NCBI GenBank assembly: GCA_016946835.1
Contig: JACVTC010000029.1
Span: forward strand, 1,137,501-1,201,500
Reading direction: 5' to 3'
Origin: Neocallimastix lanati (nom. inval.)
Taxonomy: Eukaryota; Neocallimastigomycota; Neocallimastigomycetes; Neocallimastigales; Neocallimastigaceae
DNA: 64,000 nucleotides
Shown here piece by piece: positions 6,724 to 64,000 of this stretch. Positions within the stretch are counted from its first letter, which is position 1. Each line of letters opens with the position of its first letter. Both the position numbers and the translations under genes were made by a program. The notes beneath the pieces were generated by a model that worked only from the letters and a program-made list of their open reading frames with translations, ran no database searches and was not told where the DNA came from.

Positions 6724-7110
6724 CAATCATTCAATTATTTATTATTCAATTATTCAATTATTCAATTATTCAATTATTCAATTATTCAATTATTTATTAT
6801 TCAATTATTTATTATTCAATTATCTATTATTCAATTATTATTATTTATTATTATTATTATTATTATTATTTATTATTTATTATTTATTATTTATTATTTA
6901 TTATTTATTATTTATTATTTATTATTTATTATTTATTATTTATTATTTATTATTTATTATTTATTATTTATTATTTATTATTTATTATTTATTATTTATT
7001 ATTTATTATTTATTATTTATTATTTATTATTTATTATTTATTATTTATTATTTTATTATTTATTATTCAATTATTTATTATTCAATTATTAATTATTATT
7101 TATTTATTAT
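6724..7110. repeat. TATTATT heptamer / TTCAA satellite array
   Basis: A first part is built of ATTATTCA units (6724-6840). The main part (about 6865-7050) is a near-perfect 7-bp tandem array of TATTATT, more than 20 copies. Open frames through it (Leu/Ile/Tyr only) are artefacts of the repeat. Confidence 0.9.
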
Positions 7111-7320
7111 CTAATCTTAAATTATTTATATATAAATATAGATTATATATTGAATTTTTTTTTAAATAAAAATTATTTTCTCAAGAAATATTAATCATGA
7201 AAGAAGTGATATGATAAACAATTATACATGATATTATGTTATTACTTGATTGTTCTAATTTCGTATTAGATTATTTATTTTATTTATTACCAAATTTTAA
7301 ATTCCAAAAAACCAATTTCA

Positions 7321-9650
7321 ACATCACTGAACACCATATTCGACATCGCTGATGATCTTGTAAAAAGCACGTTCTTTGTGATTGCTAAAACAGACGGGTT
7401 ACGTCGATTAGTCATTATCATCAATCATTTAATGTTTAGTGTATCTGAAAATTTCGAGGTGGAATACATCGATTGTATTAACTCCGATCGTCATTTAGTT
7501 TTCGATTGTGAATTTGTAAAATGATAATGTAAAGATTTAATAAAATCTTTAATAATTAATTATTACATAATTAATTAATGTAATAAAATTACATAAATTT
7601 ATGATTTACGTATATGAAAATTAATTATAAATTTATGTAAACTTTTCATAAAGGAAAAATTATTATTTAAATAATTTTGGATAATAACTTTAATCTAAAT
7701 AATTTATTTAAGTTAGTTAATTTAGTTTAGTTTATTTAAAATAGTTATTCTATTTAACTTAGTTAATTTAGTTTAGTTAGTTTAAAATACTTTAAAATTA
7801 ATTTCGGAATAGTTTTAAATAGTTAAAATTAGTTTAAATAGTTTATAAAAATAGTTTTAAATTGTAAATATATAAACATTAGTATTAATAATATTTATAT
7901 AATAAATATATAATAAATGAGTTGTTATTGAATTTAATTATTATTGTAAATAAGTTGAAAGTTTATTGAATTAATTATTGTTTAGTTTAGTTAATTATTA
8001 TTTAATAAAATTATTAATAAATATTTTGTTTATAAATAAATAGTAATATATGTAAATTAGATAGAAATAATATATTATAATGTAATAATGAAAAAATATA
8101 AATACATGTAAATTTCTATAATTAAATCGATGTATTAGTTATTGACTATATGATAGTTAATAACAAAAAAGAGATTTAATTTTTTTTAATTAATAAAGAT
8201 TATTTTATTTAAAAAAACGAATTTTTATTACGTGTTTTTTTATTTTGGTGTTAAAATTTGTTATTTATAATCTGTTTCTGATAGAACTCTTTACAGATAA
8301 ATTTTACCCCATTTGATATTTTTTATATCATAATGTCGATTTTGAGATTAAAGAGTTATAAGGAACGCATTGCTATTCTTGATTCTTTTAAATTTTGACT
8401 CCTTCAAAAGGATAAATTTAAGCGAAAAAAAATTAGAAAATGTGGAAATTATTCCGATTTACAAAATTTTAGAAAAAATGAAATTAATAATGAAAATAAA
8501 AATTTTATGCCAAATGATGGTATTATTAATACGGATGGTGCTGCTACTTATACTTTACAAAATATTATTCCTTTTGATAGCCACTGGGTTGAAGATATTA
8601 GAATTTATAAGATTAAAACAAGGAACACTGTTGATATTTGATTTGATGGTCGTTATTTTTTACGCTAAACAACATTCAATTAAAAAGTCGAATCTAAAAT
8701 TGACATTAGCGGAATTTTAGAAAAAAAAATATGTTTAAAGTATCATCAACATAAAAAGTTAAATCGTGATAAAAATAAAAATTATTACGTATTACCGTAA
8801 AAAGAAAAAAAGTGGTTATTATCAATGATACTCCGTTCAATAAACGTATTATTTACTATCAACTAGTGAAAGAAAAGAAAAAAATTCCTTTTATTATTGA
8901 ATTCGATATGGATAAAGGAGTATTTGTGAAAGAACGGGAAGATAAATGGACCTCGAATAGTTTAAATACTTTTAATAGTGTAGTTCTTGTTTCTTTTCAA
9001 AAAAATTAATATTGAAATATTTTCACCGGATTCTAATACCCTAAATGAGTAAATATCATAATAGAATAAAACAAAATATACTTAATGAATATAAAGGAAA
9101 CTTACTTGATATAGGTTCTGGGAATGGTGGAGATATTCATAAATGGAAACACTTCTGAAAAATTGCGTGGGTTGAACCCGACAACGTGAAATTAAAAAAT
9201 TTAAAGGAAAGAATTAAAAAAAAAAAAATCTGATATTAAGAATCGTATCACCATTTATCCAAATACTATTCAAAACATTAAATTAAAAGACTCTTTTAAT
9301 ATGGCTACGTACTTTTTTGTTTTTGCCTTTAATGATTTCAATTATAGTGACGTTGAAAGTATGTTGAACAATATTAGCCAAAATATTAATGGAATAATTT
9401 ATAGTTCTTTTTTTATGGATTATTAGCTTATTCAATAGTGATATCGATTCTCCTTGCATAAAATGTCGACAATGTATTGTTACAAATAAAAATAAATTTT
9501 TATATTCATTAGACAAGGAATCACAAGTTTATTTTATTAGGCAATTTACGATATGTGCATAAAGAATGTGATACTATAATGTTTGTAAATATTGAAAAAA
9601 ACCAATTTAACGGAACATTATGAAAATGAAATTAACAGTGAAAAAGTAAT
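7321..9650 (+). pseudogene. Fossil mRNA capping enzyme of large-DNA-virus / linear-plasmid type
   Basis: Scattered stretches on the plus strand match, in the right order, the parts of a combined capping enzyme. The guanylyltransferase motif KTDG (7387-7398) is followed by a DCEF motif-III-like stretch near 7500, an NDG motif (about 8511-8520) and an NTVD motif (8624-8635). Downstream comes the SAM-binding motif LDIGSGNGGD of an (guanine-N7)-methyltransferase (9105-9134) followed by HKWKH. Guanylyltransferase and N7-methyltransferase on one chain is the arrangement known in African swine fever virus, mimivirus relatives and yeast linear killer plasmids. Fungal nuclear genes keep these activities on separate proteins. 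The gene is clearly broken many times and partly interrupted by AT-rich filler, so it is an old fossil. No other viral gene is recognised beside it. The family call rests on motifs and order only. Confidence 0.68.
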
Positions 9651-11994
9651 AAAAATATTTAAAAAAAAAAGTTTAATATAATTAGTCAATATTCAATACA
9701 ATAAAACCATATTCATTCTTTAATCCATCTCAAAATCTATATACTTCATATTTGAGAGTTATTAAATTTTCACATACAAATGACTAACAAATTATGAAAT
9801 AAATTAAAGACATAACATTAAGAGATTAAATAAATATCATTATGATTATAAAACTAACTCTATTGTAAAACTTTCAAACTAATATTCTCTATATTTTATT
9901 TTTTATTATTAATAATAATTCTAGAATATCTGTTCATATTATATTTAATTGTTCTAGACTATGTGTAATAATTATAATAAAAATATTTTTATTTTTAAAT
10001 AGTTTTGAATAATTGCTCATTTAAATTACTTTAATTAATAATACAGAAAAGTTTATACTTTATGGATTATTTAATGTTAAAATATATATATATATTTTTT
10101 TTTTAAAAAGAAGATCCAATTCTATTAAACAAATAACTATATGATTTTATAGTAAATTAATGATAAAAAAAAAATAAATAAATTTATACATTTAGGTTTA
10201 ATTAATAAAATATATATTTTTTCTTGAAAGAAAGGAATTGATAATTAGATTAGAATGTGTTAATCCTACAAAAAATAACATTAATTAACATAAACAGATT
10301 TCTCATATTTATTATTAAGATATTAATTTATTATTTAGTAAAATAATTTTTAAAAATTATTATTATATTAAAAAAATTTATTTAAATTTTATTTGATATA
10401 ACTAATAAAAAATTTTATTTCCAAGTAGTATATAATTATTTTTAAATTTGTTCAATATATTCAGGTAATAATAGTAATTAATAGGAGGAATCTATAATAA
10501 TTATTAATATATAATTTATTGTGGTCTAACAAAATAAGTTGGATTAAGATTATTAGTAATTAAAATAATGTTATATAATGTATGTAATAACAATACATAA
10601 TAACAATATAATACATTCAATATATTAAAAATAATTCTTAATTTTATGAATAGAAAGATTCGTATCATTGGTTTATTATCTTTTGGAAATTTAAAATTTA
10701 TTAAAAATTGAACTCAAAAAATAATTTCAATTAAATTTTTAATTTTTTTATTTTTTTTAAGTTCGCAATTATTTCAAACTTTAACTTTATTAATTTATTC
10801 ATTTATTCATTTATTTATTAATTATATGTGTATTTTTTAAAAATATAAAATTAATGAAAAATATTTTTATATCACCAAATTGAACATATTAATTTTTTAA
10901 TAGTATTGTGAAATAAAAAAAAAAAAAAATTAAAAATAAAATGTATAAATAATTTCGGAAAAAGTTTCGCAATTAACAATATTGAAAATCAAGATTTAGA
11001 TTTTAATTGATAATTTAATTACCGAACATTGAAGATTTTAAATTTAGTTTAATGGAAGAATATTCAGTAACTCCTTTTCACTATTATTAATTCTTCTTAA
11101 CCTTTATGTACTTTGTTATTAAAAATAATTAAATTTTCAAATCTAAAATATTTTAGTTAATTTAAATAATATAAATGTTTTAAAAAGTAATATAATGTAT
11201 AATTAAGAATAAACTATTTCTTAATTTTAACCAAAGTTACTAAAATATAATATTAATTTAACAAGTTTACAATAATGCATTTTAATTTCAACATGAATAT
11301 ATAAATAATTTATATTTATTTCTTTTAGATTAATTATAGTATAATATTTGATAAATTCATGGTAACTACAATTACATTTATTACAATATTTAGTAAATTA
11401 ATATAAATAATATTTCAAAATATTTATATATTTAAATCATTGTAAATTTATGTACACTATATATATTTACACAGAATAATAATATAATATGCTTATTTTG
11501 TAATAAAATTTATATATTACGATATTTACATGGTTTTATTTTATATTACCTAGTTATCTTATTTTATTTACTATTAATAGGATTTTATATTTTTATATTG
11601 TTATTTATTCTGTAGTTATGATAAAATATATATAATAAAATATATATAGTAAATAAAATTAATCATCATAATTTTATGTTGTAATAGCACAAATTATTGG
11701 ATCAACTACTATCTGAATAAATTTTATTATTTCAAATGATTACTTTAATATATTAATATTAATGTTTTTTTTTTATTCTATATTAATTATTCTTTATATT
11801 AAAAGAATTATTGACTTTATATATAAAATAATACTATAAAAATTAAAATTATTATTTTTTATGCTTATATTCAATTTTATTTTCAATAGGTTTCTGGGAT
11901 ACAATTTCATAGTTATTAAAAGTTTGATTTAGATATATTTTTATAATGATTAAGATTTGAAATTTTTAATTTATTCTTAAATTTGTAATTTTTT

Positions 11995-13149: not shown

Positions 13150-16100
13150 ATTTTGTTTTTTATTTGCAATTTCTCCTATCTTTAAATTCCTTTTCATAGT
13201 AAGGCTCAAGGAATGAAACATGAAAAACTGGATGGCAACGCATTCCCTTTGGAAGATTAAGTTCATAAGCTAAATCACTTTTTTTTCTTACTAATTTTGA
13301 AGAGGGGACCATTCATTTGATTAGAAAGTTTTACTTTTTCTTATTTTTTTTTTTTTTTTTTTTTTGTTAATTCCTTTAAGTAACTAAAACTTTATCACCA
13401 ACTTCAAATTTAGAAGGATCCACTCTTCTTTGATCAGCATATTTCTTATAAGTTTCTTTTTTGCTCAATGTAAATTCGCTTTTAGAAAAAATTTTTTATT
13501 TTCATTCATCTCGGTTACATCGTTTTTTCCGCCCTTTCTAGGTCTTTTGTGTGGTGGGATTTCTAGATGAGCTTTAGGATTAAATCTATAATTAGTTAAA
13601 AAAAAAAAAAAATAAATAGGCATTTGATGGATTGATTACTGTATGGAGTTATTTCTATGAGAACTCCGCAAATGGTAAAAAGAATCCAATTGTTTTTGTC
13701 TTTCGTTGATGAAGCAACGGAGCTATTGCTCCAATATCGCATTCACCCTCTCCGTTTAAGACGTGGGACCTTATTTTCACAACAAATCTCCCAAAGATTT
13801 AACAAACCTGGAAACATCATTGGATAATTTTGGTCACCAAAAATTACAAGGAAATAAATAAGTTCGGAAAGTCCTTTTCAATACCAAAGTAACCAGCAGA
13901 AACTGAATCATGATGGAGTTTCAAGAATCCTAGTTCTTAATGATTCAGGAACATAAATTAAATTAAATTTAAATTATCGAAAAGTAGAAATCCTTCCTTA
14001 TCGATTTTTTTTTTACTTTATTTAGTATTTATTGATTGGTGGTGAAGATGAGGAATTGTTGCTTTAAATAAGCTTTAAATTTTTTTACAACAATAATTCA
14101 TCCGAATTTAATGAAGAAAATATGGAATTAATGAGGGAATCACCTGATTTTTTTACTAATTGTTAAACAACATTTTGACACAGTTCGTAAAATGGCGAAT
14201 AAATGATCACTTCTTCTTGAGAGTAAATCAGGTCTACCAGACTTCTTTCCAGCAAGATAAATAATCTTAAAATCGAATCTACATAAAAAATTTCTTACCA
14301 TCGAATTTGTCGTTGAGAGCACATTTTCTGGTTTTCTAGGGGAAAGTAAGATTTTTATGATCAGTATAAACGAAAAAATTGTTGCCGAGCACCTTCTAAG
14401 TAATGTCGCCATTTCCTCAAGTACTAATTTAATTGCTAACAACTCTTTATCATAAATTTGGTAATTCCTTTGACATTTGGTTAAATTTTTTGAGAGAAAT
14501 GCAACAGAATGCAATTAACCTTCAAATTCTTGAGATAGTACAGCTCCAACAGCTAAAGGTACTTGCATCAATTTCAACTATAAAAAGTTTATTGCTGTCA
14601 GGATTTCTTAAGATAGAAGCAGAAGTAAATAGATGCTTTAACTTATCAAAAGCGTCTTGTTGATCTTTACCCCCCCAAACAAATTGAACATTTTTTTCTA
14701 GAGAGTTTGTGAATAGGATTTGCGATTTTAGCAAAAATCTTTTATGAAAAGATGATAATAATAATTGTAAAGATCAATGAACGATTGGACTTCCTTAACG
14801 TTTGTTGAAAAAGGCCATTCTAAAATCGCTTTAACTTTTTCATTATCATTTTTTTAATCCATCCTTTGAGATTACATAACTAACGAAAGTGGTTTCCAAT
14901 TTATCAAATTCACCATTTTCCAATTTCAAAACTAAATGATTTTCTAGTAATCTTTTTAAAACCTTTTTTACAATGTATGTGATGCTCTTCCAATATTATT
15001 AGAAAAGATAAGAATATCATCACAATAAGGAATGACAAAATCATCTAAACAGTGACTGAGAACATTATTGATAGAGTGTTGAAAAGTAGCTGGTGCATTC
15101 TTTAGTCCGAAAGGCATACCTAAGAATTCAAAATGCCTATACCTGGTTCTAAAGACAGTTTTATATTCATCACCTTCTTTAATACGGACTAGATTATATG
15201 TAGATTTTAAATCTAATTTCATAAAATACTTTAGCACCTTTAACTCTATCAAGTAGTTCACTACAAAGGTAAAGGATATGAATTACGTATCGTTATTTCA
15301 TTTAACTTTCTATAATCAATAAATAACTAAATGTAAAGTACCATCTTTTTTCCTAAAAAATAAAACGGGAGCACCTGCAGGAGAAGTGAATTTTCTAATG
15401 AATTCTTTATCTAATAAATAATTACTTTAATTGCTTCTTTACTTCTTCACACTCTAATTTCGTCAAAAGATATAATCTCATTAGTCTTGATAAAAAAAAT
15501 CTAAAATATTCGTTTTTTGTTTTTCGGTGATTTTTATCGTCACAAGTAATTTCCCTCATCATTAAAAGTTCTTCACGTTCAGTAAGTCTTCTTATTCTTC
15601 TCATATTTGAAGAGTTACCCATAAAACTCTTATCAGTATCTTTTCCCTTTATAATCAATCTTAAGTTTTTTGGTTTAACCTTGTTTGAACAATTGAATTT
15701 GAGATGTCCTAGTTGTTAGTATAGGAAAGAAACACCTTTCTTTCTTTTTTCAGAATAATATCTCTTTTCTTCTTTATCCGACGGTAAGTATATTTTCTCT
15801 CGTTGGGACCTCTTTTTATATGATAAAGGTCGATGTCCATTGGGTCATTTTGCGTAGCAGTATTACTGAAAAATTCTTCCTTTTCATTTCTTCTGAGTAA
15901 GCTTTCTATATTTAATACGTTAGTAGTTAACCTAGCAAGAGATCTAGGATTTGGATCGACTAGAGCAAGTTTTTCTCTTAATGGCTGTTTTAATCCTCTA
16001 ATAAACATATAAATTTTTGCACTTTCATTAAAATCAGAATATTGGGCGATCCTCTGAAATTCTGAAATATATTCAAATATGTGTTTATTCTTCATCTGAT

Positions 16101-16473
16101 AAATATTACACAGCTTACTATTTGCTACTATAGACTCACTGGTATAATCACCGAAATAAAATTTTGATTCTTTCACAAAATAATAGTACGAGTTAAGTAA
16201 CGGACTATTATTTCTACGTAAGCAGGAGACCCATTCCAAAGGTTTTCCAAGCATATAGGACATTAAGAATCTTACTCTTGCTGCAACGTTATTAAATTGA
16301 TTTGGTAGGGATTCCATTGTTACTTCTGCACTTGTAAGGAATCCCTCAAAGTCGCATTTTCTTCCATTGAACGATGGCGGCTTATTAATTACTTCAATTA
16401 CACCGTTTTCTTTGCGATTTTCCATTATCTCTTCCAAGGATAATGTTTCAAAGAGTCTTTCTAAGTTTTCCAA
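13150..16473 (-). mobile_element. Ty3/gypsy retrotransposon fossil (gag, RT, RNase H, integrase)
   Basis: On the minus strand the parts follow the gypsy order. Gag lies at 15709-16473 (254 codons, capsid-like, with a degenerate zinc-knuckle stretch just downstream). Reverse transcriptase at about 14968-15261 has [16 protein letters not shown] and a YCDDILIF active-site box. RNase H at about 14140-14734 has AVAFLSKNLTKCQRNY and KELLAI. Integrase remnants end in the typical C-terminal stretch GMRCHPVFHVSFLEPY (about 13200-13300). The element is broken in several places and is therefore old, although the gag part is still open. No LTR pair was found. Confidence 0.9.
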
Positions 16474-18233: not shown

Positions 18234-21068
18234 ATGAAATTATTTATTTATTTCATTTTTATATTTTATTTTTTTTTTAAGGTAAAGACAGTAGTTTTAT
18301 TGTTTAAAAAAAAAAAACTGTTTTTACAGAAAATTAATTCTTTATTTTAATAATTAAAAATATAATATATATATTTATATATATTAATTTAGAAAGATGT
18401 AATACTTTAGAATTAAATGCTATAGCATACACATATCAAAACTACATTCCATATTTCACATCTGTTTTAGACAAATTTAATGAGTATACAAAGCAAAATA
18501 ATGTTGATATACACGTTTCATTAAATTTATATTCACCAGATAATTCTACGAGAAATGTCAATGATTATGGATCAACAGTAGAATCCATACTTTTTAAAGG
18601 TTCAACAAAATATGATATCTTTTTTTATGATACCATGTATTCTCCGAGGTATTCCTCCTATTTAATAGATTTAATGGATTGGTTACCTGAGGATCATATG
18701 GCTATGTATACCTCTGGTGTTGCATCCCAAACTTGTACTTATAAAGGCAGATGGGTTGGCTTAGTATGTATTAAACAAAAAAGAAAAAAAAATATATTTA
18801 AATAACAAATAAAAATAATAAATGTACTAATATTCTATTAAATTATTTTTAATTACAATAAAATTCGGTGAATAAAATAAAATATTAACTATATTATTAA
18901 ATATTTTTTAATATATGTATTTTTAATTAAAATAAAAGCCTTTAACTGTTCATTTTGATGTTTTATATTCTAATATGGATTTATTAAATAAATATGAAAA
19001 AGATATTCCGAAAACTTGGGATGAATTAATCAAAACTGGAAAATTTATTTTAGAAAATGAAAGAAAAAATGGAAATGAAGATTTATTGGGATATAATGGA
19101 CTATTTGCTGGTAAAAATAATAATATTATTATATATCTATCTTATTTATAAAACAATAAAAAAAATTTAAAAAAAAAAGTATTAATAAAATAAAAATAAA
19201 ATTATAATATAATAATAGTAATAATAATAAATTAATTATATATTATATTATTGTAACATCTGTATATATAATTATATTAAAAGATCAAGAATCTGGGATG
19301 ATATCTGCACTAGAATTTATATATTCATTCAGAAAAACAAAAGATGCACCTTTTCCAAAATACACAGATCAAGAAGCAGTAGATGCATTAAATAAAATTA
19401 AAGAACTGAAAGACGCATTATCTTCAGGTAATTTTTTTTTTTTTTTAATTATTACTGAAAATTAAAATAAATATTAAATTAAAATATAAATAAAAAAAAA
19501 GATAAAAAAAAAATTCACTATTAATAAATATTTTATTATAAATTAAATATATATATGATACAAAAATATATATATATATTATTATAAAAGATATTATTTT
19601 CAAAATGGAGGAAGAAATAACAATTGAAAAATTATTTGATGGAAAAGCAATTTTTATTAAATTTTTTGATGCTTGGAATGTACATCCTTCATATAAAAAA
19701 TCAATATTAGTAGGTAATAAAGAAGGTGTTTCAGCATCAAGTCTTGGAGGTTCAAATATTGGAATAAATAAATATATTTCTGATGAAAGAAAAAAAGGGG
19801 CCGTTGAAGCTTTGAAATTTATAACATCATATGATACTCAAAAATTTTTAGTCATAAACTATAAGGCAGGATCCGGAATTAATGCCTTATATGATGATGA
19901 AGAAGTATGTAAAGAATATGATTGTAATTTAGCAAAAGGTATTCAGTTTATTGCAAGACCGAGTGCTCTTACAAATGATTATGATGAATATTCTAGAACT
20001 TTAAGAAGGTATTTAAATGAATTTTTATATGGAGATAAAGATGCTGTTGAAGCATTAAATGAAATAAATGATATCACTAGAATTTATGATATACCTATTA
20101 ATTATTCGGAATCATCAGTTGGTTTCATAATATTTATTTTAACTATAGTAATTATGTTAATTATATTATCATCGTTGATATTTCTTTTTATCAGAAAGTA
20201 CAAAGAATATTACAATTTTTTTAGTTTAGATTTATGGATAATAATATTTACTGGATACATCATCACTCTCTTTTGTGTATTCACCGAATATGGAGAAGTG
20301 AAAAGATGGAAATGTCATTTAAAATATTTATTTATATCTTTGGGATTAACATTGATATTTATTCCAATGCTTTATAAATTACTTGTTAATTTTCCATATA
20401 ATGATGAAAATAATAAGTTTTTCGGATGGATTAATCAAAAAAGAAATAAAATTATATTTATTTCATTTTTTTTAATATATGAAATTGTTTTCCTATTTCT
20501 TCGGATTATTCCATCCTATGAAATTAAATATCATTATATTCATGATGGTAAAAATTATGAAACATGTAAAATAAATAAAGTATTTGGATATATATTAATA
20601 TATTTAATTATGATAGAAAAAATAATTATTTTATTATTGATTTCATTACTGATATTTATGGAATGGAATATTTTAAATTCATCGACAGATATAAAGTTAA
20701 TGACTACCAGTATATATATTACCATTTTAATGTTAATTTTGTCGATTCTTTATAAGTTAATTATCATTAATAATTACCTATTACATTTTATAATAAAGAC
20801 ATTATTAATAATTTCATTTGTTTTTTCTCATTTCTTTTTTTTCTATGTAATACGAATCTTCTTATTTATATTTGATAATAAAAATAAAAATATAATAGAA
20901 ATAAAACCAGTATCTGCAGTTACCACTAGTAATATATCAAATGAAGTATCTAAAAATAAAAGTTATGTGGAAAAAGATAAAAAAACTTCAATGTTATCAG
21001 CAATAATGAATTATCATAATTACACTGGAGAAGAGAGTAAAAAAAAAATTATTTTTAGCGATAATTAA
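18234..21068 (+). CDS. Class C GPCR with bacterial-type solute-binding ectodomain, copy A
   Basis: Exons by homology and splice sites: 18234-18281, 18393-18763, 18939-19110, 19284-19427, 19591-21068. Exons 2-4 and the start of exon 5 form a periplasmic-binding-protein-like domain (motifs SSYLIDLMDWLPEDHM, PKTWDELI, ALTNDYDEYSRTL). Exon 5 then has seven hydrophobic segments of a 7TM_3 receptor. The class C disulphide cysteines are visible at the top of TM3 (RWKCHLKYLF) and in the following loop (YETCKINK). A Ser/Lys/Asn-rich tail follows. The role is presumably cell-surface sensing of a small ligand such as a sugar, coupled to G proteins; the ligand is unknown. Exon 1 (M-K-L-F, hydrophobic signal) is 48 nt, whereas the other copies have 49. 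The splice phase therefore does not fit, through one base in a T-run. This may be a sequencing error or real loss of the signal exon. Confidence 0.85.
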
Positions 21069-23538: not shown

Positions 23539-26726
<3,188 letters not shown>

Positions 26727-34113: not shown

Positions 34114-35963
34114 TAAATATATATTTTATTATATTATGTAATATCTGTATATATATTAATATTTATATTAAAAGATCAAGAATCTGGGATGATATCTATA
34201 CTAGAATTTATATATTCATTTAGAAAAACAAAAGATGCACCTTTTCCAAAATACACAGATCAAGAAGCAGTAGATGCATTGAATAAAATTAAAGAACTAA
34301 AAGATGCATTAGCATCTGGTAAATTTTTTTTTTTTATGATTTTTACTGCAAATTAAATTAAAAATTAAAAATATTAATAAAAAAAAAAAAAAAAAAAAAT
34401 CTATTAATAAATATTTAAATATGAATTAAATATTAATATGATTAAAAATAAATATATATATATATTTTATTTTTGTTTATGATAGATATTATATTCAAAA
34501 TGGAAGAAAATGAAGCAGTTGAAAAAATATTTAATGGAAATGCAATTTTTATTAAATTTTTTGATGTTTGGAATATACATCCTTCATATAAAAAAACAAT
34601 ATTAGTAGGTAATAAAGAAGGTGTTTCAGCATCAATTCTTGGGGGTTCAAATATTGGAATAAATAAATATATTTCTGATGAAAGAAAAAAAGGGGCCGTT
34701 GAAGTTGTGAAATTTTTAACATCTTATGATACTCAAAAATTTTTAGTCATAAACTATAAGAAAGGATCTGCAATTAATGCTTTATATGATGATGAAGAAG
34801 TATGTAAAGAATATGATTGTAATTTAGCAAAAGGTATTCAGTTTATTGCAAGACCGAGTGCTCTTACAAATGATTATGATGAATATTCTAGAACTTTAAG
34901 AAGGTATTTAAATGAATTTTTATATGGAGATAAAGATGCTGTTGAAGCATTAAATGAAATAAATGATATCACTAGAATTTATGATATACCTATTAATTAT
35001 TCGGAATCATCAGTTGGTTTCATAATATTTATTTTAACTATAGTAATTATGTTAATTATATTATCATCGTTGATATTTCTTTTTATCAGAAAGTACAAAG
35101 AATATTTCAATTTTTTTAGTTTAGATTTATGGATAATAATATTTACTGGATACATCATCACTCTCTTTTATGTATTCACCGAATATGGAGAAGTGAAGAG
35201 ATGGAAATGTCATTTAAAATATTTATTTATATCTTTGGGATTAACATTGATATTTATTCCAATACTTTATAAATTACTTGTTAATTTTCCATATAATGAT
35301 GAAAATAATAAGTTTTTCGGATGGATTAATCAAAAAAGAAATAAAATTATATTTATTTCATTTTTTTTAATATATGAAATTGTTTTCCTATTTCTTCGGA
35401 TTATTCCATCCTATGAAATTAAATATCATTATATTCATGATGGTAAAAATTATGAAACATGTAAAATAAATAAAGTATTTGGATATATATTAATATATTT
35501 AATTATGATAGAAAAAATAATTATTTTATTATTGATTTCATTACTGATATTTATGGAATGGAATATTTTAAATTCATCGACAGATATAAAGTTAATGACT
35601 ACCAGTATATATATTACCATTTTAATGTTAATTTTGTCGATTCTTTATAAGTTAATTATCATTAATAATTACCTATTACATTTTATAATAAAGACATTAT
35701 TAATAATTTCATTTGTTTTTTCTCATTTCTTTTTTTTCTATGTAATACGAATCTTCTTATTTATATTTGATAATAAAAATAAAAATATAATAGAAATAAA
35801 ACCAGTATCTGCAGTTACCACTAGTAATATATCAAATGAAGTATCTAAAAATAAAAGTTATGTGGAAAAAGATAAAAAAACTTCAATGTTATCAGCAATA
35901 ATGAATTATCATAATTACACTGGAGAAGAGAGTAAAAAAAAAATTATTTTTAGCGATAATTAA
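32754..35963 (+). CDS. Class C GPCR with bacterial-type solute-binding ectodomain, copy C
   Basis: Exons: 32754-32802 (signal peptide MRLFTFLIFIIIIFLK), 32947-33317, 33617-33788, 34175-34318, 34486-35963. They have the same lengths and phases as copies B and D and give 737 residues. The ectodomain exons are close to copy D (shared NNIGIHVTLNLYSLDNST and SRGSIKYDIFFYD). From about 35290 to the stop and into the 3' flank, the sequence is identical to copy A (KNKSYVEKDKKTSMLSAIMN in the tail). The gene is thus a mosaic, best explained by gene conversion. Intron 3 holds a long (AAAAT)n array. All splice sites are intact. Role as for the other copies: a membrane receptor with a sugar-binding-protein-like outer domain; the ligand is unknown. 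Confidence 0.9.
33830..34020. repeat. (AAAAT)n microsatellite in intron 3 of receptor C
   Basis: More than 30 AAAAT units sit in the same intron that carries (ATA)n in copy B and short AAAAT tracts in copy D. A TAA tract follows at 34071-34110. The poly-Phe/Tyr/Ile frame across it is an artefact. Confidence 0.95.
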
Positions 35964-39554: not shown

Positions 39555-41415
39555 TAATTATATATTTTATTATATTATGTAATATCTGTATATATATTTA
39601 TATTTATATTAAAAGATCAAGAATCTGGGATGATATCTATACTAGAATATATATATTCATTTAGAAAAACAAAAGATTCACCTTTTCCAAAATACACAGA
39701 TCAAGAAGCAGTAGATGCATTGAATAAAATTAAAGAACTAAAAGATGCATTAGCATCTGGTAAATTTTTTTTTTATAATATTTACTGAAAATTAAATTAA
39801 AAATTAGTTTAAAATATTAAAAAAAAAAAATCTATTAATAAATATTTAAATATGAATTAGAATTAATTAATTATAAATTATATATATATAATTAAATATA
39901 TATATAAATATATATATTTTATTTCTATTTATAAAAGATATTATATTTAAAATGGAAGAAGAAGAAACAATTGAAAAATTATTTAGTGCAAATGCAATTT
40001 TTATTAAATTTTTTGATATTTCGAATATACATCCTTCATATAAAAAAACAATATTAGTAGGTAATAAAGAAGGAGTTTCAGCATCAATTCTTGGGGGTTC
40101 AAATATTGGAATAAATAAATATATTTCTGATGAAAGAAAAAAAGGAGCCGTTGAAGTTGTGAAATTTTTAACATCTTATGATTCTCAAAAATTTTTAGTC
40201 ATAAACTATAAGATAGGATCTGCAATTAATGCCTTATATGATGATGAAGAAGTATGTAAAGAATATGATTGTAATTTAGCAAAAGGTATTCAGTATATTG
40301 CAAGACCGAGTGCTCTTACAAATGATTATGATGAATATTCTAGAACTTTAAGAAGGTATTTCGTTGAATTTTTATATGGAGATAAAGATGCTGTTGAAGC
40401 ATTAAATGAAATAAATGATATCACTAGAATTTATGATATATCTATTAATTATTCGGAATCATCAGTTGGTTTCATAATATTTATTTTAACTATAGTAATT
40501 ATTTTAATTATATTATCATCGTTGATATTTCTTTTTATCAGAAAGTACAAAGAATATTTCAATTTTTTTAGTTTAGATTTATGGATAATAATATTTATTG
40601 GATACATCATCTCTCTCTTTTGTGTGTTCACCGAATATGGAGAAGTGAAAAGATGGAAATGTCATTTAAAATATTTATTTATATCTTTGGGATTAACATT
40701 GATATTTATTCCAATACTTTATAAATTACTTGTTAATTTTCCATATAATGATGAAAATAATAAGTTTTTTGGATGGATTAATCAAAAAAGAAATAAAATT
40801 ATATTTATTTCATTTTTTTTAATATATGAAATTATTTTTCAATTACTTTTAATTATTCCATCCTATGAAATTAAATATCATTATATTCATGATGGTAAAA
40901 ATTATGAAACATGTGAGATAAATAAATTATTTGGATATATATTAATATCTTTTATTATAATAGAAAAAATAATTATTTTAATATTAATTTCATTACTGGT
41001 ATTTATGGAATGGAATATTTTAAATTCATTGACAGATATAAAGTTAATGATTACCAGTATATATATTACCATTTTAGTATCAGTTGCATCGATTCTATAT
41101 AAATTAATTACTATTAATGATTATCTGATTTACTTTATATTAAAATCATCGATAATAATTTTATTCGTTTTATCCCATTTCATTTTTTTCTACGTAATAC
41201 GAATCTTCTTATTTTTATTTAATAATAAAGATAAAAATATAATAAAAGTGAAACCAGTATCTGCCGTTACCACTAGTAATATATTAAATGAAATATCTAA
41301 AAATAAAAGTTATGTGGAAAAAGGTAGAAAAGCTTCAATGTTATCAGCAATAATGAATTATCATAATTACACTGGAGAAGAGAGTGAAAATAAAATTTCT
41401 TTAAGAAGTAATTAA
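38347..41415 (+). CDS. Class C GPCR with bacterial-type solute-binding ectodomain, copy D
   Basis: Exons: 38347-38395 (signal peptide as in copy C), 38542-38912, 39199-39370, 39616-39759, 39938-41415. They have phases and lengths identical to B and C and give 737 residues. The ectodomain is nearest to copy C. TM4-TM6 resemble copy B (FQLLLIIPSYE, CEINKLFGYILISF), and the tail has its own ending (SENKISLRSN). The seven hydrophobic segments and the paired class C cysteines are present. All splice junctions fit GT-AG. It is probably functional. The upstream DNA from the solo LTR to exon 1 repeats that of copy C, so transcription control is likely shared. Confidence 0.9.
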
Positions 41416-58604: not shown

Positions 58605-61600
58605 CTAAAGTTTAAGATCCTTAAAGCTAGTGAGAATATTTTCTCTGAATTTATTCATCAAAGTAGTATTTAAATACTTTGTAAATCCGTCTGATAAATT
58701 ATATTCGGATTTAACATATTTCAAATTTATATATTTTTCTTTTATCAACTCCCTTATGCTATGATATCTCAAATCGATATGCTTAGACTTCGGATTAATT
58801 GTTTCGTTTTCGCAGTTATAAATAGCGGCTTTATTGTCAGTATTTATTGTTATACTGTTATTATTCAATCCAAGTTCCTTAAAAATGTTTCTGTACCAAA
58901 GGCAATGTCTTGCACACTCATGTATACCATAATATTCGCTTTCTGCGGTAGAAACGGAAACACAATGTTGGAGTTTAGAATACCAACTTGTTGGAGCTGA
59001 ATTTATTAACATCAAGAATCCTGTAGTAGATCTTCTAGTATCTTTATCACCACCTAAATCTGCATCTACGTAGACTTTAAACTCGAGTTTATTATTATAT
59101 GTAAATTTAATTCCATAATCAGGCTTACCTTTTAGATATCTAAAAATTTTTATTACATTATACCAATCTTCATAGGTGGGATCTTTGGATTTTCTTGAAG
59201 CTCTACTTACTGAAAATAGGATATCAGGTCTCGTACTTATAGCTAAGTACAATAAGGATCCAATTGCTTGTTTGTATTTTGTTGGATTAAATTTCTTTGA
59301 TTTTAATATATTATTTTCGATTGGAATCATGTTTGAAGTAGGTTTAAATTTGTTTATTTCAAATTTATTTAATATATCTTCTAAATATTTCTTTTGGTGT
59401 ATAAAATAACCATCTTTGCATTTAACAAATTTTATACCTATAACATAATCAACTTCACCTACATCAGTTGCTTCAAAATTTTCTTTTATTAAAGATTTTG
59501 TTTTATTTACTTCTTCTGAAGTACCAGCTACAATTATATCATCTACATAAACTGCTAATAAACACTTAATATTATTATTTTCATCTTTCTTGATATATAC
59601 ACAAGGATCACTCAAGAATCTTTTAAAATTTAATTTTAACAATACCTTATTTAATGTTTCGTTCCACATTCTGCCAGATTGTTTAAGGCCGTATAATGCT
59701 TTGTTCAGTTTACAATACCCTTTTTGATTCATTCCTTCTGGCATACTCATATATATATCCTCTTCTAATCTAGCGTTCAAATATGCAGCTTTGATATCCA
59801 TTTGATGAATATCAAATTTATTTTGTACTGCAATCGCAATAATTGTTTTAAGTGTATCCTGTTTAAGTGTTGGCGAAAATGTATTTTTGTAATCTATTCC
59901 GTAAACTTGTGTATAACCTTTAGCAACTAATCTTGCTTTATACTTCACAATTTTACCGTTAGCATCTCTTTTATGTTTTAGTACCCACCTTGTTGACACA
60001 ACATTAGCGTTCTTAGGTACTTTATCCACAATTGTAAAAACATTCATCCTTTTCATATTACCTAACTCTTCATCAACAGCTTTTAACCACTTATCTTTAT
60101 CTTTCATATTAAAGATATCAATATAACTACGTGGTTCAATAAAATCATTTTCATTTGTTGATAAGAGTGCAACTGTATCTAGAATATCTTTTATTTTAAA
60201 AGAGCGTTTTGAAGGATGACTAGTAATATTATATTCATCACGATAATGATATTTGCGTTTACATCTAGTTTTATTGTTTTTATTTTTATTTTTATTTGGA
60301 TGTTGTTTATTAACGTCTTTATACTTATTTCTATTATTAATATTAACTACTCTTTCAATTTGGTTTATTTCATTAGTATTATTAATATCATTAACATTTT
60401 TATTATTTTCATTAGTTTTATAATTTTCCATTTGTTCCTTTGATTTTTGAGAAAGTTCTTTCAATTTATTTAATAAAAAATGAGTATCTTTTATTTTATC
60501 TGATTTTCTCTCTTTAATTGAATTTGCTTGTTTTATATCTTTAATTTTATTGATATTATCAATTTTATCATTATCACTTTTATCATTATTACTTTTATTT
60601 AAGGTAACACTTTTATTTAAATTATTATTTATTCGTTTGTTTATATAATTTATTTTGTCCATATAAGTTACGTTATTTTGATAATTATTACTAGCAAATT
60701 CTTTATTATTATAGCTATACTCACTTCTTAGAGAATGCTTTTCATTTAAATTATTATTATTAAATTTACCTTTATTTAATTCTTCAATTAATTCATTAAA
60801 GAATTCACTATTATTTTCTTTATTATATTTATTTTGTTCATTTAAATTATTTTTATCATTTATATCTTCTTTGTTTACATCATTTTCTTTGTTTACATTA
60901 TTTTTATTTTCTTCAATTAAATTTTGATTTAAATTATAATTTATAAAATTGACATTTTTATTACTTACATTTAAATTATTAACGTCGTTGGTTTCTATAT
61001 AATTATTTATGTTATTATTTTTATTATTTGTGAAATTGTCATTTGAATTATAATTATTTAGATCAAAATACTCATTGTTTACATTATTTGATAAATTTGA
61101 ATTATTTAAATTATTTTTATTTCCTTCGATAATTAAATTATTTTTATTTATGTAATTATTGTGAGTTTCCAAATCCTGTATATTTTCATAATTAAAATCC
61201 TGCTTATTTATTCCTGTTACGTCTTCATTGGTTTTCATATTGGTTATCTTATTTCCATTATTTTCTGTGACTTTACTTCCTAAATTCTGATTTAAATTAT
61301 TATTTAAATTTAAATCATTTAAATTATTAATTTTAATTAAATTGTTAGTACTATAATTTTCTTTATTCCCATTATGAAAATTTATATTATTTTCTTTTTG
61401 GAAATAAATATTATTATTATTATTTTCATTTATTTCAGTAAGGTTGTTTTTATTATTATAATTTAAATTTAATGATGAATCATTAAATTCATGATTTGAA
61501 TGTAAATTATTAAATAGGTAATTTAAGTTGTAATTTGAAAAATTTTTATTATTATTTTCGAAATTACTGTTATATTGTATAAGACCAATAGAATTATTTT

Positions 61601-64000
61601 GTGATAAATTATTTATATTATTAAAATTATTTTGATTTAAATTATTTAAATTATTATATGGGACATTCATTTGATTTAAATTATTTATATTATTATATGG
61701 AACATTCATTTGATTTAAATTATTATTTAAATTAATTTGATTTTCATTATTAAATAAATTATTATTGTTATTATTAATATTATAAACTTCATGATATTCA
61801 TTATTATTGTTATCATTTATATCGTCTTCAATTTCTTCAGATTCATAAAATGGAGTAAAGTTAAATATATCTGGAGAGGACAGAGGAGGACCTATATTTG
61901 CAGGTTCATCTTCAAGAAATGCGACTGTTCGTGAAAGAATTATTTTATTATTATTAATATCATATATTCTATATGCTGTATGATTAATTTCGTCATAACC
62001 TAAGAATACACCTGGTAGGGTTGTATTACAAAACTTCTTTCTGAATTGTTTAGGAACATAAAAGTACACTCGACAGCCGAAAACTTTAAGTCTATTATAA
62101 TCTACCTTTTCGTTATACAATAATTCATATGGAATTTTATTATTATTACCTTTATGTGGTAATCGATTATGAATATAATTAGCCGTTGCAACTGCATCCT
62201 GCCAAAATTTATGACTTAATTTAGCATCAGCTAACATTGCATCTCCATTAGATATCAATGTTCTGTGCAATCTTTCTACTCTACCGTTTTGTTGGGGGTT
62301 ATGTGGCACTGTGTGTTCATGAATTATTCCAGTTTTATTGTAAAACTCATTAAAATTATTATTGAAAAATTCTGTCCCATTATCTGTTTTTATGTATTTA
62401 ATATTATAATTTTTAAATATATTTTTAATTTGATTATACCAAATAATAAAAGCATTATATACATCGCTTTTATTTTTAACAAATAGTACCCAACTATACC
62501 GTGTAAAATCATCGAGTATAGTTACAAAATATCTATTGTTATAAAATGAAAAATCAGGAGCCTTAACCAAATCCATGTGTAAAAGTTCAAAAGGTTCCTT
62601 TGTATGATTGATTGATGGGTAATATGGTAAATTTGTAAGTTTTGATTTTAAACAAATTTTGCATTTTGGTGTAAAATTAATTTTCTTTAATTTATTTTTA
62701 ATTAGGTCAATGTTAAAATGACCAAATCTTCTATGCCATAGATTCAAACTTGAGTCATTCGTGGCATCTTCAATATTATAACAAGTAACGTTATTGAAAC
62801 TTGTAGATATATTACTTTTTGTTGTAAATATTTTGTAGACTTTAGATTCATTTGAATAACTTGTATATATTCTTTTTCCTTTATTATTATACAATAGAGC
62901 ACACCTTTTATTATTGTATTTATTTTTATAGAAAACTATTTTATAATTGTCATCACTTAGATGATCAATTGATAAAAGACTTCTTTTAAAAGATGGAACA
63001 TATAGGACATCGTTTAATATTATTTTGTGGTTATTGATTAATCCTATATATTTACCTATTAATTTTGATTCAACGACATCACCATTAGCAAAATGAATAT
63101 TAATATGGTGATCATGTGTATCTACTAAATTTTCTCTGTTATGGGTCATGTGATATGACGCCCCAGAGTCTAAAGTCCATATTGTGATGTTACTGTTATT
63201 AATATTGGGTTTTTGGTTTTGGGCAGTATAATAACTTAAATTTTGCCCTTCTGGCTTACGCCATTTAACGAAATTTCTTGTTATCAGAAATTGCGCTATT
63301 CGATTGATTTATATTATCATCATTATAATCGATGGATAACGTATTATCAAAAATCTCATTATAGTTTTCTCTTTCTTCTTTATCCAAGTTTACCTTAACA
63401 TTATCAGCATGGTACTTTTCTTTTTTCTTTCTTTGGTCCTTATTTTCATATTTTCTTTTGTAGTTATTGTATCTTTTGTAGCTATTTTGTCTTCTTCTGA
63501 GGGTTTTGACTCTACAGTCACGTGCTATATGGCCTGCTTTGCCACATTTGAAACATATAACCTTCCTCTTGTTATTTTGTTGATTGTTTATTTCTGAATT
63601 GTACACCTTAATTTTTTCTTGATCACTTTTTAAACTTCGTAAATACTTTAATCTTGGAATAGTCTTTTTTAATTGCTCACAACATTTCTTCCAGTCATCT
63701 TGGTATGATATCACATTGGTTAATTGAACAATGTCGCTGGGTAGTGCATTATATAAATAATTAAATTTTCTTTCGTCACTTATTGACTCACCTAGTTCTT
63801 CTAACTTGTCAATTGTATTTAATAATTTGGAAAGAAATATTCCAAAATCATCATTTATATTGTATTTTAAAATATTCAACTTTTTGACTGTTTCTAATTT
63901 TATTTCTTCGTTGTTCTTTACAAAGAGTCCTTGTAAGTGGTTCCAAACTTCGTAAGCGGTTTTATTCTTAAAATCTATTGTACTTTTGGTTTTATCGTCA
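58605..64000 (-). mobile_element. Ty1/copia retrotransposon, frames whole within the window, cut by the right edge
   Basis: Pol is open from the stop at 58605 to beyond 63149. A protease box LDSGAS lies just upstream of the first Met. The integrase zinc region (LWHRRFGHF, CKIC, residues about 138-166 counted from 63149) and DDE core (HMDLV, TDNGTEF, NPQQNGRVERLH) follow. An Asn-rich linker of about 500 residues (about 446-950) precedes the reverse transcriptase (WVLKHKRDANGK, YVDDI near 1201) and RNase H (VYVDADLGG near 1356). Gag (63265 to past 64000) is in another frame and carries the zinc knuckle CFKCGKAGHIARDC. It remains open to the window edge, so its true start is outside. A frame change between gag and pol is usual in this family. 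No break is visible, so the element is probably young. Confidence 0.95.

Follow-up and report, generated by a model that had tools for sequence, protein, structure and literature searches.

The anaerobic gut fungus Neocallimastix lanati carries, within the 64,000-nucleotide stretch of contig JACVTC010000029.1 that was analysed here (the window; C212:1137501-1201500 in the contig numbering used below), the decayed remnant of a gene for a one-chain mRNA capping enzyme, and related copies elsewhere in the genome belong to the multi-gene DNA element with which this report is chiefly concerned. The remnant lies on the + strand at window positions 7177-9778, is spread over three frames, and corresponds to about residues 338-939 of a 940-amino-acid (aa) open relative from the same genome (C274:9190-12009). 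As the first-pass annotation of this DNA had proposed, guanylyltransferase and N7-methyltransferase motifs follow in order on one strand, and all of them were located on the + strand: KTDG at about 7387, NDG at about 8513, NTVD at about 8624, and LDIGSGNGGD with HKWK at about 9105-9149. These motifs sit in different reading frames, and there is therefore no single open frame in the window copy. The first part of the gene (7177-7528, +, about residues 338-442) holds KTDG and forms the left edge of the viral stretch; the second (8301-9778, +, about residues 446-939) comprises the rest of the guanylyltransferase with NDG and NTVD, the OB-fold region, and the N7-methyltransferase with LDIGSGNGGD and HKWK. 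Between them, splitting the gene, lies an AT-rich insert of 772 bp (7529-8300) that bears a short inverted TGTAAAGA-like repeat at its ends, as judged by eye, and has a 90% relative at C63:201256-201965. This insert is a later arrival, since in those copies that extend this far 7528 is directly followed by 8301, and it is likely to be a small non-autonomous transposon. An AT-rich non-coding stretch 3' of the gene (9779-11728, +) is common to the window and other degraded copies, extending with gaps to 11172 in C41 and to 11728 in C55. With the viral stretch starting at 7177 and the common sequence reaching about 11728, the locus is longer than the 7321-9650 earlier assigned to it.

The start of the viral stretch at 7177 (residue 338) is abrupt and lies beside low-complexity DNA, with the aligned positions 7113-7176 falling outside. 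The window copy is truncated at this point, because nine other copies align from 7177 and continue alike upstream. The possibility that 7177 is the defined end of a transposon-like repeat was dropped on the flank comparison, in which the other copies run on upstream and the window copy alone is cut. Stops fall at 15 aligned residues of the window copy, one of which, residue 334, lies immediately outside the left edge, and some of the stops may merely reflect a change of frame. Situated about 1.15 Mb into a 1.51-Mb contig, the window copy is chromosomal, and it does nothing itself.

Comparison of the 940-aa relative with window positions 7113-9778 gave E values of about 1e-56 to 1e-59. With the database size set to 4e8, this query had no match at E <= 10 in the window minus 7101-9900, nor in the reversed window, and the capping enzyme was the only one of 17 element proteins to match the window at E <= 1e-5. 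The earlier proposal of a dead, viral-type one-chain capping enzyme in a fungal chromosome is upheld by this match and by the position of the copy deep within its contig. Profile searches are in agreement: capping families were matched weakly and in order by three of seven separately searched window pieces, all under curated cut-offs (MCEL_GT_NTPase, the poxvirus-type guanylyltransferase, E 0.05; mRNA_cap_C, E 0.002; N7-methyltransferase, E 0.0065), and nothing relevant in Pfam was matched by the remaining four. The usual fungal family, mRNA_cap_enzyme, matched contigs C1 and C51 and had no match in the window, nor was this family (PF01331) matched by the separately searched window pieces. A lone match at E 0.8 was all that the window pieces gave against solved structures; in the window, scans with Rfam and for tRNAs were without result, and PHROGs gave nothing useful.

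A DNA search of the genome (199 Mb, 762 contigs) with the window copy, in which 40 of 94 candidates were scored, gave at least 47 matches at 40 places including the window, the other 46 at 67-92% identity. Elsewhere in the genome, cassettes hold open genes for a family-B DNA polymerase (PolB), a D5-type primase-helicase (D5), the RNA polymerase subunit Rpb2, a uracil-DNA glycosylase (UDG), the capping enzyme, and parts of Rpb1, so that a genome-wide scan for other such genes, as envisaged in the first-pass annotation, finds them both as DNA matches and in open cassettes. Comparison of ten 20-kb regions separates two lineages. In lineage A (C274, C100, C721, C322 and C198) the genes are mostly open, the breaks being an Rpb2 in three frames in C274 and one stop each in D5 and the capping gene of C198/C322. 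Lineage B (C55, C710, C41, C63 and C752, together with the window) is degraded and has about 40-70% aa identity to lineage A in most aligned pieces. C198 and C322 are 99.97% identical across 18.7 kb and may represent one place; the degraded C55 and C710 have 7.7 kb in common at 92.7%.

The gene block of the element, assembled from pieces on C274, C100, C721, C322, C198 and C55, runs PolB (-), a 151-aa gene (-), a 196-aa gene (+), D5 (+), Rpb2 (-), UDG (+) and capping enzyme (+). PolB and the 151-aa gene are located beyond the 196-aa gene as seen from D5, in a lineage-A piece in C55 that overlaps C100, and the PolB frame is not closed within the stretch read; UDG and Rpb2 point away from each other, and their starts overlap. 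D5 and Rpb2 are convergent neighbours, at about 58-69% to this group, on a 5.1-kb rumen contig binned as the methanogen Methanosphaera stadtmanae (L047; SUTQ01000041.1, 1-5134), probably in error; the contig is probably also a sign that the element occurs in the rumen. When the stretches upstream of 15 element genes were inspected by eye, GAAAATATTTA was found to be common to the capping enzyme and PolB, and no clear common promoter was seen beyond it.

The number of copies and their arrangement are best followed with the RNA polymerase genes. An Rpb2 query gave at least 50 matches, a lower bound with 39 of 5838 candidates scored, and 15 of these are full-length, open and 97-100% identical, including those on C198 and C322. 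The first-pass annotation had suggested an old integration, which is mistaken or falls short in both number and age: a single event is rejected, given the 15 open full-length Rpb2 copies, the DNA matches to the window copy, and at least two diverged lineages of which the younger has open, near-identical genes. Rpb1 domain 2 had 55 matches, and 34 of these, grouped by like scores (63.7-65.1 bits) to the exclusion of cellular-looking and other scattered matches, lie on 33 contigs, mostly in 724-aa frames. Rpb1 domain 5 was matched (E 2.9e-14) in a 500-aa frame of its own on C198, and Rpb1 is therefore probably two genes. Both Rpb2 (on 30 contigs) and Rpb1 (on 33) are present on 18 contigs, always on opposite strands (20 of 20 pairs), at distances of 24.3-34.0 kb in the 16 pairs in which Rpb1 is on the capping-enzyme side and 26.7-27.2 kb in the four in which it is on the other side; one C193 copy in these pairs is without its first 182 residues, and its distance was adjusted for that. 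A distance of 54.7 kb separates two Rpb1 copies on C172, and one of 58.6 kb two Rpb2 copies on C193. The constant orientation on 18 contigs thus argues for head-to-tail or circular units, and the simplest map is such a unit of about 51-61 kb, present as chromosomal arrays or as episomes; large contigs that carry copies include C721 (934 kb) and C55 (425 kb). On C322 two Rpb2 copies are only 26.0 kb apart, and there is no Rpb1 domain-2 match, for which reason a reading of C322 as a compact complete unit was dropped; it may be a deletion form.

The element has its own large RNA polymerase subunits (Rpb2, and Rpb1 domains 2 and 5) and a D5-type primase-helicase (D5_N, E 8.7e-8; P4-family primase C-terminal domain, E 1.4e-34, over cut-off). 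Its PolB matches PF00136 (E 4.7e-62) together with the PF03104 exonuclease domain. In a Foldseek comparison of PolB, modelled at a predicted local distance difference test score (pLDDT) of 71, with viral models, the best match was Pithovirus LCPAC104 (E 1.2e-52) and African swine fever virus (ASFV) stood at rank 17; 14 of the best 20 viral models are named, and 13 of these we take to be nucleocytoviruses. In a tree of 64 of the 68 PolB matches (four short ones were dropped, and one named virus is included), 22 gut-fungus-type sequences group in a single clade (support 1.0) that is nearest to metagenome sequences and separate from the C4-finger polymerase-delta group, and N. lanati sequences occur in more than one place. 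PolB had 568 relatives in IMG/VR, of which 80 were retained, with best segments at 20-28% identity; the IMG/VR scans with Rpb2 gave one weak match (L046) in one scan and none in another, and those with capping-enzyme queries gave no relative. Among the best 120 of 168 Rpb2 matches, gut-fungus and metagenome sequences are followed by archaeal, eukaryotic and unnamed and then bacterial Rpb2-type sequences, at 27-41%. For the capping enzyme, all named sequences among 31 matches are from Neocallimastix, Anaeromyces or Piromyces, and the rest are metagenome proteins. A Foldseek search of this enzyme against viral models gave 17 best matches at E 1.9e-21 to 3.9e-12 over 610-954 alignment columns, and the named ones (14 of the 17) are nucleocytovirus mRNA capping enzymes or mRNA 5'-phosphatases. 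The guanylyltransferase and methyltransferase of a one-chain enzyme are supported, the methyltransferase domain being about equally like cellular and viral cap methyltransferases; the N-terminal triphosphatase part aligned in the low-confidence model only and is not resolved there.

It is very probable, in light of these data, that the window holds the dead, truncated capping gene of a nucleocytovirus-like DNA element, which either entered N. lanati many times or multiplied there. Several observations weigh against this interpretation. No named virus is among the 31 capping-enzyme sequence matches, and in Pfam searches of 14 open capping enzymes a general methyltransferase family was matched by all 14, mRNA_cap_C by six and the ligase-type DNA_ligase_A_M by six, with no capping-specific guanylyltransferase or methyltransferase family at E <= 0.1 even in these open enzymes. 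The model of the capping enzyme is poor (mean pLDDT 48, whole-chain template-modelling score about 0.2), so that its fold ranking serves as a lead only, and cellular relatives could not appear in the fold search because the library consists of viral proteins only. By sequence, the solved structure nearest to PolB is cellular polymerase delta (E 6e-48), and those nearest to Rpb2 are RNA polymerase II and archaeal Rpb2 (E 2e-60), a long way ahead of vaccinia (7.7e-22) and of an RPB2 homolog presumably from ASFV (2.1e-23). The capsid families PF04451 and PF16903 had no match in the genome in a search whose control, six virus records included, was also silent, and the A32-type packaging ATPase (PF04665, Pox_A32) had no genome match at E <= 0.1 in a search that recovered four of 14 controls and that a diverged form could escape.

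The decay of the window copy and the past selection on its relatives bear on how the element came to be so widespread. Between lineages A and B the ratio of nonsynonymous to synonymous substitution rates (dN/dS) is 0.12-0.22 for Rpb2, 0.15-0.19 for D5, 0.21-0.44 for UDG and 0.18-0.29 for the capping enzyme, at a dS of about 1.0-1.9, a level close to saturation; the calculations excluded stop codons and gaps, and the capping-enzyme figures come from part of the pairs. Inside lineage A, Rpb2 gives 0.17-0.26 at dS 0.03-0.05. For the window copy, comparison with 18 other degraded copies yields 0.59-0.81, as for decay. The low ratios between lineages indicate that these parted as working genes, and that the window copy decayed afterwards. 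A possible if doubtful alternative is that the copies are a passive host repeat, in which segmental or subtelomeric duplication has spread one dead insertion, with no repeated entry of a live element. The first part of the window copy is indeed 85-94% like nine other copies, long tracts are common to C55 and C710 and to C198 and C322, the Rpb2 dN/dS inside the degraded group reaches from 0.29 to 1.07, and six of the 15 window stops recur in one or two other copies. The other nine stops, however, are found in none of 25 other copies (some of which are the same place twice or near-identical), and neither the 15 fully open Rpb2 copies nor the divergence of the degraded from the open lineage under strong constraint is accounted for by copying of a dead insertion. 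No telomere repeats were present in the loci examined, and a subtelomeric place is therefore not supported.

Considerably less probable is that the window holds a relic of a yeast-type cytoplasmic linear plasmid of the killer-plasmid kind with a capping enzyme and RNA polymerase, an origin that the first-pass annotation had offered beside a viral one. A virus-like capping enzyme and an RNA polymerase of their own are described for the yeast elements in PMC6831550, and the silence of the capsid families in the N. lanati genome would suit a plasmid as well. The polymerase of the element speaks against it, being of the PF00136/PF03104 type and not matching PF03175 (DNA_pol_B_2, protein-primed), a family without a match anywhere in the genome in a search whose control gave none either, as do the D5-type primase-helicase, the UDG, and repeat units that measure tens of kb. 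A decayed pair of host genes, in the form of fused or neighbouring Ceg1 and Abd1 relatives of no viral origin, is very improbable, given that the relatives combine the two activities in a single chain next to PolB, D5, Rpb2 and UDG, and that the usual fungal capping family is matched on C1 and C51 and not by the window pieces.

The working element encodes a DNA polymerase B, a D5-type primase-helicase, a UDG, Rpb1 (probably split between two genes), Rpb2 and a capping enzyme of one chain, and on the nucleocytovirus-like reading it would replicate and be transcribed outside the nucleus. The capping machinery of the host is tied to nuclear RNA polymerase II, and an element outside the nucleus would for this reason need an RNA polymerase and a capping enzyme of its own. 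In the stretches read, the cargo beyond the capping gene varies from copy to copy. A 2031-aa protein and its relatives, with signal-peptide-like starts as judged by eye, lie beside the capping gene in C274, C100 and C721, and other proteins do so in C198/C322. Members of this family of very large proteins (L026:2525-8617, L028:5553-9998 and L030:4843-7767) are about 33-48% alike over the longest stretches that align, in copies with capping enzymes about 95% alike, and they form a fast-changing part of the element. Among ten cargo-side frames, only a C721 ankyrin protein and the Rpb1 part were over Pfam cut-offs. A 736-aa open frame between the capping gene and the Rpb1 part of C198 (L034:5592-7799; C198:42592-44799), in which a CPKC motif follows a PRTLFVPYGFEL stretch, had no Pfam match at E <= 0.05. 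The sole genome match of viral late transcription factor 3 (C240:36892-37068, E 0.095, below cut-off) falls in a 489-aa frame within an element contig, between Rpb2 and Rpb1.

These features point to DNA viruses or virus-like elements of a group still little known, residing in anaerobic gut fungi. It can be suggested, tentatively, that a living nucleocytovirus-derived lineage persists in these fungi as circular or head-to-tail units of about 51-61 kb, in which the replication-transcription arm is constant and the cargo arm, made up of large secreted-looking proteins, is variable, possibly as a capsid-less cytoplasmic episome, the window being part of an older, dead sister lineage. The open, multi-copy gut-fungus lineage most deserves attention: its core genes reside, in many open and near-identical copies, in a cultured fungal genus, so that activity of the element is directly testable in culture, and the result would bear on the kinship between large DNA viruses with capsids and cytoplasmic elements of plasmid type.

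Apart from the capping gene, the long frames in the window are of fungal or transposon-like character (class-C receptor-like, ankyrin-repeat, esterase-like and retrotransposon parts), with one lacking a match. Four open frames of 487-496 aa on the + strand, at 19605-21068, 25242-26726, 34473-35963 and 39952-41415, match 7tm_3 over cut-off and form a local class-C receptor-like cluster. A copia-type retrotransposon polyprotein of 1514 aa occupies 58605-63149 (-), adjoined by a zinc-knuckle frame at 63265-63879 (-), and that its frame is still open suggests a recent insertion; a Ty3-type gag fragment lies at 15709-16473 (-).

Parallels with known systems are instructive. In the capping enzymes of the Nucleocytoviricota (ASFV NP868R and its pithovirus, marseillevirus and mimivirus-type counterparts, with poxvirus D1), as in the element, a guanylyltransferase is followed by an N7-methyltransferase on one chain, and it is these enzymes that rank first in the viral fold search with the predicted model of the element enzyme; they differ in that the sequence matches of the element enzyme lead to no named virus and its triphosphatase part is not resolved in the model. 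The linear DNA of the yeast cytoplasmic elements pGKL1/2 is small. Like the N. lanati element, pGKL1/2 are AT-rich, reside in a fungus, and combine their own RNA polymerase with a virus-like capping enzyme, and according to PMC6831550 their DNA polymerase is coded together with a terminal protein on linear DNA. The N. lanati element departs from them in its PF00136-type PolB, D5-type helicase, UDG and larger units. In Rhizophagus irregularis, a 1.5-Mb endogenous asfarvirus-like region is reported (PMC10640383), which likewise lies in a fungal genome, has a PolB, two RNA polymerase subunits and a capping enzyme, and yielded no major capsid protein; fifteen to thirty-three polB copies per genome lie outside this region. 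According to PMC10640383, D5 was not found there, the markers are single-copy and there is one large region, unlike in N. lanati, where D5 is present and there are many units of tens of kb. For Neocallimastigomycota, nothing on such elements was found in the literature as judged by titles and abstract openings. Gong, Zhang and Han are said to have described, in 2020, nucleocytovirus PolB fossils in several fungal phyla, reportedly in part related to pithoviruses, so that viral polymerase genes in fungal genomes are common ground, to which N. lanati adds a multi-gene unit and a repeated layout. Fungal nucleocytovirus fossils are thus already known, and it is the N. lanati lineage and its layout that look new.
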